This document shows, piece by piece, positions 47,046-54,540 of a DNA stretch of 64,000 bases. How positions within the stretch are numbered: the first letter of the stretch is position 1; every line of letters starts with the position of its first letter. The notes under the pieces are model-generated. The model worked only from the letters and a program-made list of their open reading frames with translations, ran no database searches and was not told the DNA's origin. The stretch lies in contig CADDZJ010000008.1 in assembly GCA_902812415.1 (NCBI GenBank), forward strand, positions 1 to 64,000, read 5' to 3'. The translations under genes and the position numbers were made by a program. The stretch comes from Acidobacteriota bacterium (GTDB lineage: Bacteria; Acidobacteriota; Terriglobia; UBA7540).

Positions 47046-48986
47046 ATGGCAAAGATTATCGGGATTGACCTTGGCACGACCAACTCGGTTGTAGCCGTCA
47101 TGGAGGGTGGAGAACCGGTTGTGATTGCCAACCCCGAGGGGGCGCGCACAACCCCATCGGTGGTGGCATTTACCAAATCGGGCGAACGGCTGGTAGGCCA
47201 GACAGCGAAGCGGCAGGCCATTACGAACCCTGAGAATACGATTTATTCCATCAAACGATTCATGGGGCGTCGCTTCAATGAAGTGCAGAGCGAAATCAAG
47301 ACAGTTCCTTACAAGGTGGTTGAAGGGCCAAACGGCGACGTACGCGTAGTGGCGCAGGGAAAGGAGTATTCTCCGCCTGAGATTTCGGCTTTAATCCTCC
47401 AGAAGATGAAGGACGCTGCCGAGCAGTATCTGGGCGAGAAAGTGACACAGGCGGTGATCACCGTCCCGGCTTATTTCAATGACAGCCAGCGGCAAGCCAC
47501 CAAAGACGCCGGCAGAATCGCCGGGCTGGAAGTGCTGCGCATTGTCAATGAGCCGACGGCGGCCGCGCTGGCTTACGGCCTGGACAAGAAAAAGGACGAA
47601 ACAATCGCTGTCTACGACTTTGGCGGCGGAACCTTCGACATCTCGATTCTCGAGGTCGGCGAGGGCGTGGTGGAGGTGAAGTCGACCAACGGGGACACAC
47701 ACCTGGGCGGCGATGACATCGACAAACGGATCATCGACTGGATTGTGGATGAGTTTCGCAAGGATCAGGGGATTGATCTTTCCAAGGATCGCATGGCCCT
47801 GCAGCGACTTAAGGAAGCCGCCGAAAAGGCCAAGATGGAGCTTTCAACGCTGCTTGAAACCGACATCAATCTGCCTTTTATTACCGCGGACGCTTCAGGA
47901 CCCAAGCACCTCACCATGAAGCTCACGCGCGCGCGGTTTGAGCAGATGTGCGAGGACATCTTCCAGCGGTCTGTGGGCCCGGTCAAGCAGGCTTTGCAGG
48001 ATGCTGGCGTCGGCCCGGATAAGATCAACGAGGTTGTTCTGGTTGGCGGTTCAACGCGCATCCCGCGCATCCAGCAGATTGTCCGCGACCTGTTCCTGGG
48101 CAAAGAGCCGCACAAAGGCGTGAACCCTGATGAAGTCGTTGCGGTAGGCGCGGCAGTGCAGGCCGGCGTGCTCAGCGGGGAGGTTAAAGACCTGCTGCTG
48201 CTGGATGTAACTCCGCTCACGCTGGGAATCGAGACCCTGGGCGGCGTTTCCACTCCGCTGATCGCCCGCAACACCACGATCCCAACGCGCAAGAGCGAGA
48301 TCTTCTCAACGGCGGCTGATAACCAAACGTCGGTTGAGATTCACGTGCTTCAAGGCGAGCGGCCCATGGCCAGGGACAATCGCACGCTGGGCAAATTCCA
48401 CCTGGTTGGAATTCCCCCTGCTCCGCGCGGCGTCCCGCAGATTGAAGTGACGTTCGATATTGACGCCAATGGCATCCTGAACGTCTCGGCGAAGGACCTG
48501 GGCACGGGCAAGGAGCAGAAGATCACGATTACCTCCTCCAGCGGCCTCAGCAAAGAGGAAATCGATCGCATGACCAAGGAAGCTGAGGCGCATGCAGATG
48601 AAGATCGGAAGCGTAAGGAAGAAATCGAGTTGAAAAATCGCGCGGATGCGATGGTCTATTCCACTGAAAAAATGCTCAAAGAACATCGCAGCAAGATTTC
48701 CGATGCGGACGCCCGGAACATCGAGGCCGCTATCGAAGACGCCAAAAAGGCGATCCAGGGTAACGACACCTCTCAGATTACGGCCGCGGTGGACCGATTG
48801 ACACAAGCTTCGCACAAACTGGCGGAGGCGATGTACAAGCAGGCGCAGCCAGGAGCCGCAAGCTCCGCCTCGCACGATGGAGGCGCTCAAGCCGGCTCTT
48901 CCACAGGCGGCGGGCAGAGCAAAGCCCAGGGCGAAGGTGAAGTGATTGACGCTGAGGTAGTGGACGAAGATAAGAAGAAGGGTTGA
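47046..48986 (+). CDS. dnaK: Molecular chaperone DnaK (Hsp70)
   Basis: A 646-residue Hsp70. It starts [20 protein letters not shown] and contains [80 protein letters not shown] and the substrate-binding [18 protein letters not shown]. The C-terminal lid ends with the EEVD-like [12 protein letters not shown] typical of bacterial DnaK. GAGGAGAG lies about 7 bases before the ATG 47046; the frame from 47010 lacks one. It heads a heat-shock island with dnaJ, hspR-like and hsp20 genes. grpE is not here. Confidence 0.98.
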
Positions 48987-49073
48987 TCCAGGGCTGAAAT
49001 CTGCGCAGGAACGGCCAGGCGGTAACGCGACGCGCAGAGATTCAGCCGGGATTACCGGAATTCGAGGTGAAAC

Positions 49074-49295
49074 TTGCACAGCGAAACCCAGAGAGAAACC
49101 GCGCCGGTTAAACACCGGGCGCACGTAGGGGTGGAATGTCCTCAGTGCCATTGGAGACAACTGGTGGAGATCGATTTGGATAAGCCGGTCGTGGACAACC
49201 CTTTAGCCTATGAGATCCGCCGCCAATTGGAGGCTTGGATGGCCTCGCGTTGCCCGGACCACCTGAACATTATTTCGAACCTGAGTAAGAACTGA
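49074..49295 (+). CDS. Small CxxC protein between dnaK and dnaJ
   Basis: A 73-residue protein starting with TTG after GAGGTGA. It contains HVGVECPQCHWRQLVEIDLD and, near the end, WMASRCPDHLNIISNL, so two Cys/His clusters could bind one zinc. It is placed where some actinobacterial and acidobacterial dnaK operons carry grpE but is not GrpE. Unknown function; the position inside the chaperone cluster suggests a folding or stress link, by inference. Confidence 0.55.
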   Translation: MHSETQRETAPVKHRAHVGVECPQCHWRQLVEIDLDKPVVDNPLAYEIRRQLEAWMASRCPDHLNIISNLSKN

Positions 49296-49398
49296 AATGG
49301 AGAAGCATCCCTGAGTGACAAGTGGAAAGTGAGAAGGTGTGAATAAATTAATCCGCGCAGTTGTCGCGGCGAACTATGTTCGCCGAAGTTTTTCAAAA

Positions 49399-49442
49399 CA
49401 AAAACCCGGCGATCACAGATTGCCGCTACGGCGAGTTTTTTT
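49399..49442. terminator. Possible bidirectional terminator hairpin between dnaK group and dnaJ
   Basis: An imperfect inverted repeat: AAAAACCCGGCGA on the left pairs with CGGCGAGTTTTTTT on the right with two mismatches, giving an A-run before and a T-run after the stem. It lies about 105 bp after the small CxxC gene. A weak terminator would reduce read-through into dnaJ. Confidence 0.4.
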
Positions 49443-49593
49443 CACAACTTCTGATGAGTGACGAGCGAAACTAACCAGAACTTCAGATCGATTTTTTGCT
49501 CATCGCTCATTACTGACTACTGGTTTTTCTGATTTCTCGGAATGACAGTTCGCAAAGTTTTTTCAGCATCCGAGTAAGCAAATCTAATCAACG

Positions 49594-50970: not shown

Positions 50971-51387
50971 ATGGCGAAAAGAGGCAGAAAAACTCGCGGC
51001 AAGGCCGGTTACATGATCAGCGCAGTGGCGGAGATGTACAATCTTCATCCACAAACCCTCCGTCTTTATGAGCGCGAAGGCTTGCTGACGCCCTCGCGGA
51101 GTGAGGGCAATACCCGGCTCTATACCGAAGATGATTTAGAGCGGCTCGAAATCATTCTCAAGCTGACGCGCGATCTTGGGGTGAATCTGGCTGGAGTCGA
51201 AATTATCCTCAATATGCGAGCACGGATGGCGGAGATGGAACGCGAGATGAAAGCTTTCATGGAATATGTGCATAGGGAATTTATGAACTCGTCTCCCGAA
51301 TCCGAGGCGCGAATCCAGAATGCCCTGGTGCGCGTCGGCCCCCCTACCCTCATCCCGGTTAACCGGCGAAGCCCGCATGTTTCCTGA
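50971..51387 (+). CDS. hspR: MerR-family regulator, HspR-like heat-shock repressor
   Basis: A 138-residue MerR-type regulator. The winged HTH reads YMISAVAEMYNLHPQTLRLY, then EREGLLTPSRSEGNTRLYTE, followed by DLERLEIILKLTRDLGVNLA and a coiled-coil helix. This is the HspR pattern (YxIxxxAxxxxxHPQTLRxYExxGLxxP). HspR binds HAIR sites with DnaK as corepressor and represses dnaK operons and hsp20. It follows dnaJ as in actinobacteria. The conserved RSEGNTRLYTEDD wing is intact. Overlap of function with a CIRCE/HrcA system cannot be judged. Confidence 0.88.
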   Translation: MAKRGRKTRGKAGYMISAVAEMYNLHPQTLRLYEREGLLTPSRSEGNTRLYTEDDLERLEIILKLTRDLGVNLAGVEIILNMRARMAEMEREMKAFMEYVHREFMNSSPESEARIQNALVRVGPPTLIPVNRRSPHVS

Positions 51388-51596
51388 GGGCTGAGCGCGT
51401 GGATTGCGCTCGCTACAATCAGGATTATAACTGCGTAGGCCGCCAGTTTTTACCTTGTGTTAGGCCATCTGCTTTTTTTCCATATTAGCTCAGTTTGATA
51501 TCCTTCGAATATGATAGCAGGCAACTCACATGATCTTGCCAGCATCTCTTTAAGTGAAAAATCCAAAAAATGCTCGAAATAAGGAGGTGACGCGCT

Positions 51597-51731
51597 ATGG
51601 CAATGAACGTTGACATTCGGCAATGGATGTCTTTTATGTCGGATAAAATCGTTCGCCGGGCGCGCGCCTTCCGATTTGGGCGGAACGCGCTCGGCTGTAG
51701 CCGGAGCAGCATGGGAGGCGGCAAGCCTTAG
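51597..51731 (+). CDS. Microprotein A (44 aa), member of a two-copy family upstream of hsp20
   Basis: A 44-codon gene with an excellent AAGGAGGTGA (51581-51590) 6 bases before ATG. The peptide begins MAMNVDIRQW, has a basic centre (IVRRARAFRFGRNALG) and ends SMGGGKP. It is too short for most gene finders, but its homology to the second copy at 52008 (shared MAM, RARxFRxG, N.LG.S and MxGGK) shows it is a real protein. It is very basic and glycine-rich at the end. No known family; see the matching finding. Confidence 0.75.
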   Translation: MAMNVDIRQWMSFMSDKIVRRARAFRFGRNALGCSRSSMGGGKP

Positions 51732-51780
51732 CCGTTGTTCTCAGCGTTCCAGTATACTTCTCCCCTTAACCTCGGGAAGC

Positions 51781-51815
51781 GAGCACACTTGGCCCTGTAG
51801 GCCCGGGTGTACGAT
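51781..51815 (+). promoter_or_regulatory. Conserved 3' motif downstream of microprotein A
   Basis: GAGCACACTTGGCCCTGTAG, then GCCCGGGTGTACGATT, aligns with the segment at 52188-52220. Its core GGCCxTGTAGGCC is self-complementary around a 5-base loop. It may be a small RNA hairpin or protein-binding site in the 3' UTR; see findings. Confidence 0.4.
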
Positions 51816-51908
51816 TCTTCCGAGGAATCCCTAGAAGAGACGTTCGGCTCATACCCCAGAGGTAGGGGGAGACTTCCCTGTATCTCAAAGTGGGGCAACT
51901 TAACACAT

Positions 51909-51932
51909 CACAACATACGCCAAAGGCGGTAT
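51909..51932 (+). other. Hairpin in the gap between the two microprotein genes
   Basis: ACATACGCC, AAA, GGCGGTATGT form a near-perfect stem with one bulged G and a 3-base loop. No T-run follows, so it is not a standard terminator. It may process or stabilise the transcript. Confidence 0.35.
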
Positions 51933-52007
51933 GTCGCACAACCCACAAAGACTTAAGTTGAGCATGGTCACTTGAAAGAACATCGGGGATAAAGGAGGTG
52001 ATGTGCG

Positions 52008-52136
52008 ATGGCGATGACTCGGAATCTTCGACGTTTTACAAGCCTATTGGGTCGTCTTATATGCCGAGCACGAAGCTTCCGAGACGGGAAGAATACGCTC
52101 GGCAATAGCGGGGGCATGGTGGGCGGAAAAGCCTAG
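52008..52136 (+). CDS. Microprotein B (42 aa), paralogue of microprotein A
   Basis: A 42-codon gene preceded by AAAGGAGGTGATG with 8 bases to the ATG. The peptide begins MAMTRNLRRFTSLLG, has ICRARSFRDGKNTLGNS and ends GGMVGGKA. Aligned with microprotein A with two small gaps it keeps MAM, R.R/Q.., S, RAR-x-F-R-x-G-R/K-N-x-LG-x-S and M-x-GGK. The gene lies 411 bases downstream of copy A and 334 bases upstream of hsp20, all in the same direction. Function unknown; DNA/RNA or membrane interaction is possible given the basic charge. Confidence 0.75.
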   Translation: MAMTRNLRRFTSLLGRLICRARSFRDGKNTLGNSGGMVGGKA

Positions 52137-52187
52137 AAGTCCGCCCTCACGATAAAGCTGTAGGCGCTGCCTGTGGCCTCTCGCACC

Positions 52188-52220
52188 GAGTACATGTGGC
52201 CGTGTAGGCCTGTCCTGGAT
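52188..52220 (+). promoter_or_regulatory. Conserved 3' motif downstream of microprotein B
   Basis: GAGTACATGTGGCCGTGTAG, then GCCTGTCCTGGATT: the second copy of the motif at 51781-51815, at a similar distance (about 52 versus 50 bases) from its stop codon. This repeat of position supports a duplicated transcription unit. Confidence 0.4.
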
Positions 52221-52341
52221 TATCGTTTCTCTTAAAATCTCCTAAAACAACATGCTGCTCGCAGTGATGGAGGCCAAAGGGTAGACCGCAGGCTTGAATG
52301 CCCTTCAAACAGGAATTTTCCGAGAAGGGAGGTGAAGAGCT

Positions 52342-52863
52342 ATGGCGATTCAACGAGTTTCCCAACGAGGGCGAGCACGACGGCATCCACGGCTGGCCGT
52401 GTGGGAGCCGTGGCGCGAAGTCGTCAACATTGAGAATCGAGTAAGCGATCTGTTCGGCGAAGCCTTCTCGCGTTGGTTCGATTCCGGAAAACGCGCCCCT
52501 AACCGGATGTGGTCGCCGCCGGTCGATGTTTACGAGACCGACAGCCATTTCATCCTTAATATGGACTTAGCAGGCGTGGATCCTCATCAGATTGAGGCTC
52601 GGATTGAGGGCCAGACGCTCTTCATAAAAGGCCATCGGAAACGCGAGGGTAAGGCGAAGGACTATTATCTTGCGGAGCGTGTCTATGGTCCTTTTGCGCT
52701 ATCCCTGGCGCTGCCGAGCTATGTGGATCCTGAAAGCGTCACGGCACAGTATCAAAATGGCGTATTAACGCTCACCGCGTCGAAACGCGAAGAGGCCAAG
52801 CCCAAGACAATTAAGATTCAACCGCAATTACCCGCAGCTCAAGCGACGGCCGCTCACAGTTAG
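52342..52863 (+). CDS. Hsp20/alpha-crystallin small heat-shock protein (1)
   Basis: A 173-residue small heat-shock chaperone that holds unfolding proteins for DnaK. The N-terminal arm is unusually basic (QRVSQRGRARRHPRLAVWEP); the alpha-crystallin domain spans about residues 55-150 (SPPVDVYETDSHFILNMDLA-like start PVDVYETDSHFILNMDLAG, then GPFALSLALPSYVDPESVTA and NGVLTLTASKREEAKPKTIK with the family's conserved NGVLxL motif). GGGAGGTGAA precedes the ATG in a leader that resembles those of the two microproteins. It is followed by a second hsp20 gene 88 bp downstream. Confidence 0.95.
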   Translation: MAIQRVSQRGRARRHPRLAVWEPWREVVNIENRVSDLFGEAFSRWFDSGKRAPNRMWSPPVDVYETDSHFILNMDLAGVDPHQIEARIEGQTLFIKGHRKREGKAKDYYLAERVYGPFALSLALPSYVDPESVTAQYQNGVLTLTASKREEAKPKTIKIQPQLPAAQATAAHS

Positions 52864-52951
52864 CGCGCCCCGTTTGAGCGGGTAGCCTTCCGCGGCTTCG
52901 GAAACAAGCCCCGGAAGGGAACTGAAAATTTTAACGAGGAGGTAAACCACA

Positions 52952-53404
52952 ATGGCGATCGTTCGATGGGAACCCTTCCGAGATCTCGTAGCGACGCAAG
53001 ACCGATTCAACCGCCTGTTTAATGAAGCCTTTTCGGGCTTTTTTGGTGATGAAGGAATGGGGACGCCGGCCTGGGCTCCGCCAGTGGATATCTATGAGAC
53101 GGATGAGAGCGTGATCTTGACGGCGGAAGTGCCGGGCGTGGACCCCAAGGATGTGGATGTCCGCATTGAAGGCAACACTTTGTATTTGAGTGGCGAGCGC
53201 AAGCTGGACTCTGGGATTAAGGAAGAGAATTATCGGCGCATGGAAAGAGTGTATGGGCCGTTTTCACGGACTTTCACCCTTCCGGCATCGGTCAATCCAG
53301 ATAAGGTGAACGCTGAGTACAGCAACGGCCTGCTCACCTTGACCATGCCCAAGCGCGAAGAAGCCAAACCCAAAACGATCAAAATTCTCGCCAGTAAGAA
53401 CTGA
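52952..53404 (+). CDS. Hsp20/alpha-crystallin small heat-shock protein (2)
   Basis: A 150-residue small heat-shock protein, closer to the standard form: AIVRWEPFRDLVATQDRFNR, APPVDIYETDESVILTAEVP, then ERVYGPFSRTFTLPASVNPD and NGLLTLTMPKREEAKPKTIK. GAGGAGGT lies 9 or so bases before the ATG. The two hsp20 genes share VDxYETD and REEAKPKTIK and are probably an old duplication; the first has lost similarity in the N-terminal arm. A strong terminator follows at 53412-53446. Confidence 0.96.
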   Translation: MAIVRWEPFRDLVATQDRFNRLFNEAFSGFFGDEGMGTPAWAPPVDIYETDESVILTAEVPGVDPKDVDVRIEGNTLYLSGERKLDSGIKEENYRRMERVYGPFSRTFTLPASVNPDKVNAEYSNGLLTLTMPKREEAKPKTIKILASKN

Positions 53405-53411
53405 CCTTTCT

Positions 53412-53446
53412 CGCCCGCCGCGCCAGAGGATCTGGTGTGGCGGGCG
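53412..53446 (+). terminator. Strong hairpin terminator after hsp20 (2)
   Basis: CGCCCGCCGCGCCAGA (53412-53427), loop GGA, and TCTGGTGTGGCGGGCG (53431-53446) form a 16-bp stem with two G-T pairs, followed by a T/C-rich tract (CTTCCTTGTCTCCTTTT). It starts 8 bases after the stop codon. Confidence 0.75.
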
Positions 53447-53575
53447 CTTCCTTGTCTCCTTTTACCAAACTGCCCAGTGGAGGTTTGTGGATTGCTCGCA
53501 AAGCTGTCGTGTGCATACCTGTGTCGGATTGGGGGAAGAGGGAATAGCACAAGGAAAGTTAATGAGAAAATTCAC

Positions 53576-53803
53576 ATGTATTTCATTCGTGTGTGTTTGT
53601 TGCTGACTGGGATTGTTCTCATATTAGGCACAACTTTGTTTCTTGTCACCATCGGAGCAATTCTGGTCCAAGAGGGAGTGCGGCGGGCAGCCATAGGTTT
53701 TCAGCGAGTGCTTGTGACATGGGCAGATCACATCCACTTGCTTCTCGAGCGGGAGACCCGCAAATGGAGGACCGGGCCGATGAGAGAAAAACTTAAGGGG
53801 TAA
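53576..53803 (+). CDS. Small membrane protein of unknown function
   Basis: A 75-residue protein with one strongly hydrophobic helix (MYFIRVCLLLTGIVLILGTT and on through FLVTIGAILVQEG) followed by a basic amphipathic tail (LLLERETRKWRTGPMREKLK). ATG 53576 lacks a clear Shine-Dalgarno (AAGGAA lies about 20 bases upstream), so the exact start is uncertain. It precedes the zinc-ribbon gene by 13 bp and shares its strand. Confidence 0.5.
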   Translation: MYFIRVCLLLTGIVLILGTTLFLVTIGAILVQEGVRRAAIGFQRVLVTWADHIHLLLERETRKWRTGPMREKLKG

Positions 53804-53816
53804 GGAGTCATAGAAA

Positions 53817-54182
53817 ATGGCAAGGTATCATAGCGCATTGAAATCAAAATACCGCGCCCGACATACGTCTTGTATTGTGTGCGGGAAACTGGTGTTCAAC
53901 AAGGGTTTGACCAAGTGTTCGAAGTGCGGAGGCGCGGTCAGCCATTTTTCCGATGCGGATTTGCAACTGTTGGGCCGGGGAGCGCGTGGACCAGTGCACC
54001 TACCCATCAGCGTTTTTGAGGAAAAGAACGCAACTCCGGCTGTAGAAACAGCCCATTCCAGGGGAAGAGCAGGGTTTGTGCATCCCCATCGTCGCGGCCG
54101 TCAAACAGATCGAGGAAAAGCCTATGGTCGACTTGATTCAAAGCGGAATACTTCTCGTCAAAGACGGCACGGCGGCGCCTGA
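53817..54182 (+). CDS. Zinc-ribbon protein with low-complexity C-terminus
   Basis: A 121-residue protein. The first 45 residues contain a treble-clef-like zinc ribbon (SCIVCGKLVFNKGLTKCSKC with the second CxxC in CSKCGG) in a basic context (SALKSKYRARHT). The rest is Arg/Gly-rich and overlaps the next gene (from 54124) by 59 bases. The C-terminal part could be artefactual: the +1 frame from about 54045 reads more like protein (KQPIPGEEQGLCIPIVAAVK) and leads into the next open frame, so a frameshifted fusion gene is possible. AAGGAG lies about 10 bases before the ATG. Confidence 0.6.
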   Translation: MARYHSALKSKYRARHTSCIVCGKLVFNKGLTKCSKCGGAVSHFSDADLQLLGRGARGPVHLPISVFEEKNATPAVETAHSRGRAGFVHPHRRGRQTDRGKAYGRLDSKRNTSRQRRHGGA

Positions 54183-54540
54183 GTCAGTCGTTTTTGAGCG
54201 CCAGCCTTGCCTGAAGGGCTGGAGCATCGTGTTGGGTCTTCCAGCCTCTGGCCTGGAGAGAAAGTTGAGCCAGGTGGGATGGACACTCTTTTATCTGGCC
54301 GCTGAGATTAATAGCTCGGCGTGGGGGCGGAATGAAGCTCAGGCGGCGCTGAAGGCAGTGCGACGACTCCTGACTCGTAAAGACGCGAGGAAATTCAACT
54401 GCCTTCAGATTACTGAAGTTCGCTCGAAGCGATGGCTGGGCATCACTCGGGTCCATCTGGTTGCACATTGGCGCCACATCCAGAAAGGGCCCGTGCTTTT
54501 CCAGCCAGGAAGTTCGAACACAAGCGGGGCCGCCCCCTGA
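54124..54540 (+). CDS. Conserved-looking protein of unknown function
   Basis: A 138-residue protein beginning MVDLIQSGILLVKDGTAAPE after GAGGAAAA. Later segments are SKxWxIVLGLPASGLERKLS-like (LKGWSIVLGLPASGLERKLS), QVGWTLFYLAAEINSSAWG, ARKFNCLQITEVRSKRWLGI and VHLVAHWRHIQKGP. I recall similar acidobacterial hypothetical proteins with a DGxxxPES...GW...AGEV pattern, but no function. It overlaps the zinc-ribbon gene and may be translationally coupled to it, or be the second half of a frameshifted gene. Confidence 0.6.
   Translation: MVDLIQSGILLVKDGTAAPESVVFERQPCLKGWSIVLGLPASGLERKLSQVGWTLFYLAAEINSSAWGRNEAQAALKAVRRLLTRKDARKFNCLQITEVRSKRWLGITRVHLVAHWRHIQKGPVLFQPGSSNTSGAAP

Follow-up and report, generated by a model that had tools for sequence, protein, structure and literature searches.

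The window, a stretch of 64,000 nucleotides of Acidobacteriota DNA, contains two related small ORFs directly before a pair of hsp20 genes. We propose, with a probability of about 0.45, that both ORFs serve as translated leader cistrons of an hsp20a–hsp20b operon with a structured 5′ leader, in which the start of ORF1, like that of its homologue in a second genome, is locked by the ORF's own codons, and that they influence hsp20a in cis.

Two paralogous small ORFs in a heat-shock island

ORF1 (51597..51731, + strand; 44 aa, MAMNVDIRQWMSFMSDKIVRRARAFRFGRNALGCSRSSMGGGKP) and ORF2 (52008..52136, + strand; 42 aa, MAMTRNLRRFTSLLGRLICRARSFRDGKNTLGNSGGMVGGKA) are located between hspR and hsp20a, with a start-to-start distance of 411 bases. 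Both are closely preceded by the Shine–Dalgarno (SD) sequence AAGGAGGTG (51581..51589 for ORF1 and 51992..52000 for ORF2, both + strand), and both are probably translated. The ORFs, their SD sites and the spacing are exactly where a sequence-only reading of this DNA had put them. That reading had also described the setting as a heat-shock island, in agreement with the identity of the flanking genes: an HspR-like MerR-family repressor (50971..51387, + strand; NCBIfam HspR 103.9 bits, cut-off 105), DnaJ, and two Hsp20 genes, hsp20a (52342..52863, + strand) and hsp20b (52952..53404, + strand). In homology searches, hsp20a belongs to a type with an Arg-rich N-terminal extension (RKREGKAKDYYLAER type).

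The two peptides can be aligned over their full length and have in common M-A-M, S12, RARxFR, G33, M39, and G-x-K. Their local alignment score is 77 (23 ± 5 for shuffled sequences, p ≤ 5e-5), so the proposed paralogy is confirmed and, on sequence comparison, homology of the peptides is beyond doubt. Exact copies of the start-region pattern AAGGAGGTGANGNGCNATGGC are confined to ORF1 and ORF2 (chance expectation about 0.1 matches); with one mismatch it recurs at hsp20a (52326). A 28-nt start block is present three times (ORF1, ORF2, and hsp20a), spaced 411 and 334 nt; since hsp20a has it too, this repeat is triplicated rather than duplicated. The duplicated unit runs beyond the stop codons, with a 34-nt repeat at 51770/52177. 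Neither peptide has a match in Pfam or NCBIfam at E ≤ 1, in line with the earlier impression that they belong to no recognised family, and Rfam, including its described RNA thermometer families (ROSE and fourU), gave nothing at E ≤ 1 across 51000–53600.

Homologues precede the same hsp20a subtype

Homologues were searched for in the genome of origin, in 39 genomes of the family, and in samples of 399 genomes of the class and 396 of the phylum. In a profile search of their own genome, ORF1 and ORF2 were the sole copies. The family contains one further homologue, a single-copy ORF (peptide MALLRKIHSMLSTVWKPVSCRARTFRLRQAPGCGRSMEGSKP) from a different genus (genome G011, contig CADDZE010000005.1), which is situated 203 nt upstream of an Arg-rich hsp20a. 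A homologue elsewhere, for which the sequence-only reading had suggested searching, was thus found in another genus, again before hsp20a. The remaining 37 genomes of the family gave no hit, which puts the ORFs in 2/39; the sampled class and phylum genomes yielded no credible extra copy, and plasmid and viral collections no homologue. At family, class, and phylum level, weak matches (E 1e-4 to 0.1) were rejected as not credible: the best of them (L104) falls within a larger ORF that is unrelated, and RNA-model matches at two further loci (L081 and L083) are dnaK starts. A named-genome collection was searched using hsp20a as an anchor. The conserved downstream gene at 54076–54540 provided a second anchor; of its relatives elsewhere, the three inspected have no such small ORF adjoining them.

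All three copies sit before the same hsp20a subtype, which upholds the link to hsp20 noticed earlier, and the distance from the last ORF stop to the hsp20a start is 203–206 nt in both genomes. The gene order 3′ of the ORF is also the same (hsp20a, hsp20b, a zinc-ribbon protein, and an uncharacterised protein). The genes 5′ of it differ, with a peptidase-like gene and uracil-DNA glycosylase in G011 and dnaJ–hspR in the window. The zinc-ribbon protein (53817–54182) and the uncharacterised protein (54076–54540) come after hsp20b in both genomes. The latter has no Pfam match at E ≤ 0.01, and its relatives occur elsewhere in the phylum without this hsp20a type, one of them (L127) near groEL and a different hsp20.

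The only genomes in which the RKREGKAKDYYLAER type of hsp20a turned up are G000 and G011, the two that carry the small ORFs, so that subtype and ORFs co-occur in 2/2 genomes. The N-termini of these proteins are Arg-rich (RGRARRHPR and RSRGRGGRRQRR), and the two genes (52342–52863; L041 2804–3349, − strand) encode, in addition to this extension, a basic stretch, RKREGKAK; neither element was seen in any other Hsp20 of that family.

The ORF1 start is predicted to pair with its own codons

Folded independently, ORF1 and the G011 ORF are predicted to form the same 17-bp helix, in which GGAGGUG-CGYGCU-UGGC (SD, spacer, and start) pairs with the (R/C)RARxF codons. In ORF1, the 5′ arm (51583..51601, + strand) comprises the SD, spacer, and ATGGC and is present in both MFE and centroid folds, and the 3′ arm (51655..51671, + strand) lies within the ORF, at codons R20-R21-A22-R23-A24-F25. 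In the three-sequence alignment, a weaker homologous helix of ORF2, formed by a 5′ arm at 51994..52012 and the CRARSF codons at 52063..52079 (both + strand), keeps 14/17 pairs. The predicted duplex energies are −28.6 kcal/mol for ORF1 and −23.5 kcal/mol for ORF2. Across the three sequences 94% of cells are paired, a count for which the shuffle control was uninformative. Covariation is minimal, with one two-sided change in three sequences, two of which are orthologues: alignment pair 17–86 is C-G, U-G, and U-A, with U-A in ORF2 replacing C-G. Further one-sided changes in the helix are compatible with pairing.

SD accessibility was ranked among 48 GGAGG-led starts from the window and related loci. 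The predicted mean unpaired probability of the ORF1 SD was the lowest of the 48 (0.002) and that of the G011 SD the second lowest (0.004), whereas the ORF2 SD ranked 33/48 (0.41) and is not sequestered in the model; an occluded SD, as in RNA thermometers in general, is therefore predicted for the first two (0.002–0.004) and not for the third. The pairing exceeded that obtained with random synonymous codons (p = 0.009 for ORF1 and 0.007 for G011) and with synonymous-codon shuffles (p = 0.002 and 0.04, respectively), both nulls being built on the codon usage of five window genes. The lock is also self-specific: ORF1 and G011 pair significantly with their own starts alone, and other start regions tested never fell below p = 0.05. 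We also considered whether the ORF cores might pair over a long range with the start of hsp20a, and rejected this, as such pairing was not above synonymous recoding (p = 0.08 and 0.64). In an unbiased fold scan of 501 windows, the ORF1 start window ranked 7th and an ORF2 window 3rd.

The ORF2 helix was not significant against synonymous recoding and is not part of the MFE fold; the preferred ORF2 fold differs and leaves the SD partly open, so that in these models the lock is largely lost. The anti-SD region of ORF2 has an alternative pairing, 52018–52030 with 52071–52083 (CTCGGAATCTTCG / CGAAGCTTCCGAG, 92% complementary), which could possibly free the SD.

Because the RARxF codons form the predicted anti-SD arm over their own start, this conspicuous motif would be at least partly an RNA feature. 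All folds are predictions for RNA free of ribosomes and proteins. In the thermodynamic model the ORF1 SD is unpaired with a probability of 0.00 at 20 °C, 0.03 at 65 °C, and 0.09 at 75 °C; since the lock does not open by 65 °C, ORF1 is unlikely to be a simple RNA thermometer.

A 70-nt block before ORF1 (51511..51580, + strand; TGAYAGCAGGCAACTCAYA...GTGRAAAAYCCAAAA), a conserved non-coding leader or promoter region, aligns with the G011 leader with a local score of 61 (maximum of 29 in 5000 shuffles) and is not common to ORF2. Long imperfect hairpins are predicted 3′ of ORF1 (51759..51872, + strand; z −4.2) and 3′ of ORF2 (52167..52284, + strand; z −3.8), both in hand-chosen windows. In the unbiased scan, the former scored z −2.8 to −3.2 and the latter was not among the top-listed windows. 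Other intergenic hairpins scored equally, and both are therefore given little weight. Hairpins with z −3 to −4.8 are predicted for the majority of gaps in this island, including those after dnaK (48941–49102), before dnaJ (49361–49522), after hsp20a (52781–52922), and after hsp20b (53321–53522). The HspR operator (HAIR) consensus, allowing ≤3 mismatches, was absent near the small-ORF unit. No sigma-70-like promoter emerged from a scan of both strands, and co-transcription with hsp20 is accordingly an assumption.

Constraint acts on nucleotides and on the reading frame

Comparison of ORF1 with its G011 orthologue shows 21, 12, and 15 differences at codon positions 1, 2, and 3, respectively, with dN approximately equal to dS. 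Third positions thus change less than first positions (p = 0.003 relative to neighbouring genes), and dS is 0.6, compared with 2.3–2.5 for hsp20a/b and saturation in two other neighbours. Conserved residues are encoded by the same codon in 13/17 cases, compared with 125/300 (42%) in neighbouring genes (hsp20a, hsp20b, and two neighbours from the same two genomes; p = 0.006). Residues 3–19 are almost unconserved between the orthologues, and the codons of the N-terminal loop are nearly free. The indels, although few, follow the frame: 3/3 within the ORF are multiples of 3, compared with 0/6 in the leader (p = 0.012), which argues that the reading frame still matters. The simplest reading of these patterns would be a dual constraint, on RNA and on frame, that falls mostly on the C-terminal 25 codons.

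The two window copies differ from each other in another way. Their substitutions are protein-like, as the sequence-only reading had anticipated (BLOSUM sum 94, null 30 ± 15), with dN 0.49 and dS 1.77, and the sense frame is clearly the best of six. The claim that retention of both copies implies selection on the protein therefore stands in part: the window copies are protein-like and the frame is kept, but between ORF1 and G011 the constraint is at the nucleotide level. The dN/dS comparison across homologues is divided in the same manner, 0.49/1.77 for ORF1–ORF2 and dN approximately equal to dS for ORF1–G011.

The antisense frame over ORF1 is long, open, and similar in both genomes (51485–51724, − strand; L041 3560–3868, + strand), which is probably a by-product of nucleotide conservation. 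An antisense protein was rejected, as the antisense frame of ORF2 has a stop and is conserved less than the sense frame.

A proposed self-locking leader ORF and its alternatives

In the mechanism we propose, the (R/C)RARxF coding sequence of the ancestral unit, represented by ORF1 and the G011 ORF, would pair with its own SD, spacer, and start codon. The ORF would be locked once transcription has proceeded about 75–90 nt beyond the SD. With the pairing arm some 55–90 nt 3′ of the SD, there would be a time window for ribosome loading, and initiation would need either a ribosome that arrives before the lock closes or something that opens it. A loaded ribosome would hold the arm open. Because the lock could form only after its arm is transcribed, translation of the leader ORF would be sensitive to the initiation rate, and this translation would remodel the leader and so affect hsp20a expression in cis. 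The window genome would have added a tandem second unit, ORF2, with a weakened lock. Opening or closing of the lock may be assisted by a protein; E. coli IbpA and the Arg-rich hsp20a invite such a comparison. As in leader peptides and uORFs, an ORF with its own SD lies directly upstream of the operon, at a conserved position in 3/3 copies, and selection on the reading frame is seen in the indels (3/3 versus 0/6). Position and nucleotide constraint would favour a role in cis on hsp20a; the protein-like substitution between ORF1 and ORF2 favours, at the sequence level, a working peptide and counts against the leader reading.

A working peptide is the core of a possible but somewhat unlikely alternative, in which the ORFs encode trans-acting microproteins of the heat-shock island, helical at the N-terminus and with a C-terminal half that is conserved and basic, that act on membranes, nucleic acids, or chaperones, and the start helix only tunes their synthesis. 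The protein-like divergence of the window copies (dN 0.49, dS 1.77), the kept frame, and the strong SDs agree with it. The peptides are basic (net +7/+8), residues 3–20 of ORF2 are amphipathic (moment 0.79, p = 0.004), and a low-confidence structure model places a helix at residues 3–34 (pLDDT 66, pTM 0.28). However, ORF1 shows no amphipathicity (p = 0.47), and that of the G011 peptide is weak (p = 0.10). The orthologues, with dN approximately equal to dS and residues 3–19 almost unconserved, retain codons rather than residues, and the ORFs are found in 2/39 family genomes, always in cis to hsp20a.

At the opposite extreme, selection could act on RNA or DNA sites only, with the ORFs being accidental. 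The excess of synonymous conservation, the conserved non-coding leader, the hairpins, and an antisense frame conserved as well as the sense frame between ORF1 and G011 all speak for this reading. We nevertheless consider this improbable, as all in-ORF indels are multiples of 3, a good SD and ATG are present in all three copies, and the sense frame is clearly the best of six between ORF1 and ORF2.

The leader might instead be a putative binding site for Hsp20a itself, such that the Arg-rich chaperone shuts the leader and is released when aggregates titrate it away. This idea draws on E. coli IbpA, which is reported to repress its own translation by binding its own 5′ UTR through an arginine (PMC10474464). 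The Arg-rich N-termini (RGRARRHPR and RSRGRGGRRQRR) and RKREGKAK, in a subtype confined to the two ORF-bearing genomes, are compatible with it. The key arginine of IbpA is, however, a specific alpha-crystallin domain residue, to which any equivalent among the arginines of Hsp20a is putative, and the retention of an ORF would be left unexplained, which makes this alternative rather unlikely as well. A type I toxin-like gene, in which SD sequestration holds the mRNA of a very small toxic peptide inert, would account for the size, the tandem arrangement, and the locking of the SD by an anti-SD of the same mRNA, a hallmark of type I toxin mRNAs (PMC6733600), but is very unlikely given basic peptides that do not span membranes (mean hydrophobicity −0.30 to 0.11 in the most amphipathic 18-residue windows), no promoter-like antisense site in the sigma-70-like scan of both strands, and loci that are not scattered but constantly linked to hsp20.

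If the leader-cistron reading is correct, the small heat-shock operons of one Acidobacteriota lineage carry an ORF that encodes both a peptide and its own translation switch. It is doubtful, though conceivable, that this constitutes a new class of chaperone-operon control, in which a translated leader ORF is locked by its own conserved codons, a tandem copy has a different lock strength, and ribosome traffic sets the output of small Hsps. For the annotation of small ORFs in general it matters that what the eye takes for a 'conserved peptide motif' can in large part be the pairing arm of an RNA.

Comparison with known systems

Type I toxins are a well-known case of SD locking within the mRNA of a small ORF; in aapA3 mRNA, for example, SD-hiding hairpins can be stabilised by mutations in the 5′ UTR or the ORF (PMC6733600). 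The small ORFs described here resemble hok and aapA in their size and in the sequestration of the SD by an anti-SD of the same mRNA, but encode a basic peptide without a membrane span and are linked to hsp20.

With ROSE and fourU RNA thermometers they share an SD occluded by base pairing and a location in the leader of a small-Hsp operon. In contrast, the pairing arm lies about 55–90 nt downstream of the SD, inside the ORF, and is very GC-rich, the lock is predicted not to melt by 65–75 °C, no Rfam family matches, and the locked SD is that of the small ORF, not of hsp20.

The self-regulation of IbpA through its 5′ UTR is alike in combining a small Hsp with RNA-level control in its own leader (PMC10474464). 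Protein binding is putative here, and the IbpA system, as described there, has no leader ORF, unlike the small-ORF unit.

The small ORFs also resemble leader peptides and upstream ORFs (uORFs) of bacterial operons, such as the ilvBNC uORF (PMC10272879), in being short, having an SD of their own, and lying in the structured leader of an operon; nucleotide constraint and a kept frame are further points in common. The unit described here matches no known leader peptide family, and no regulatory codons or stall motif were identified in it. It differs from leader peptides in its tandem arrangement, in the products of the operon, which are small heat-shock proteins, and in its conserved codons, which form the predicted anti-SD arm over the start of the very ORF that contains them.
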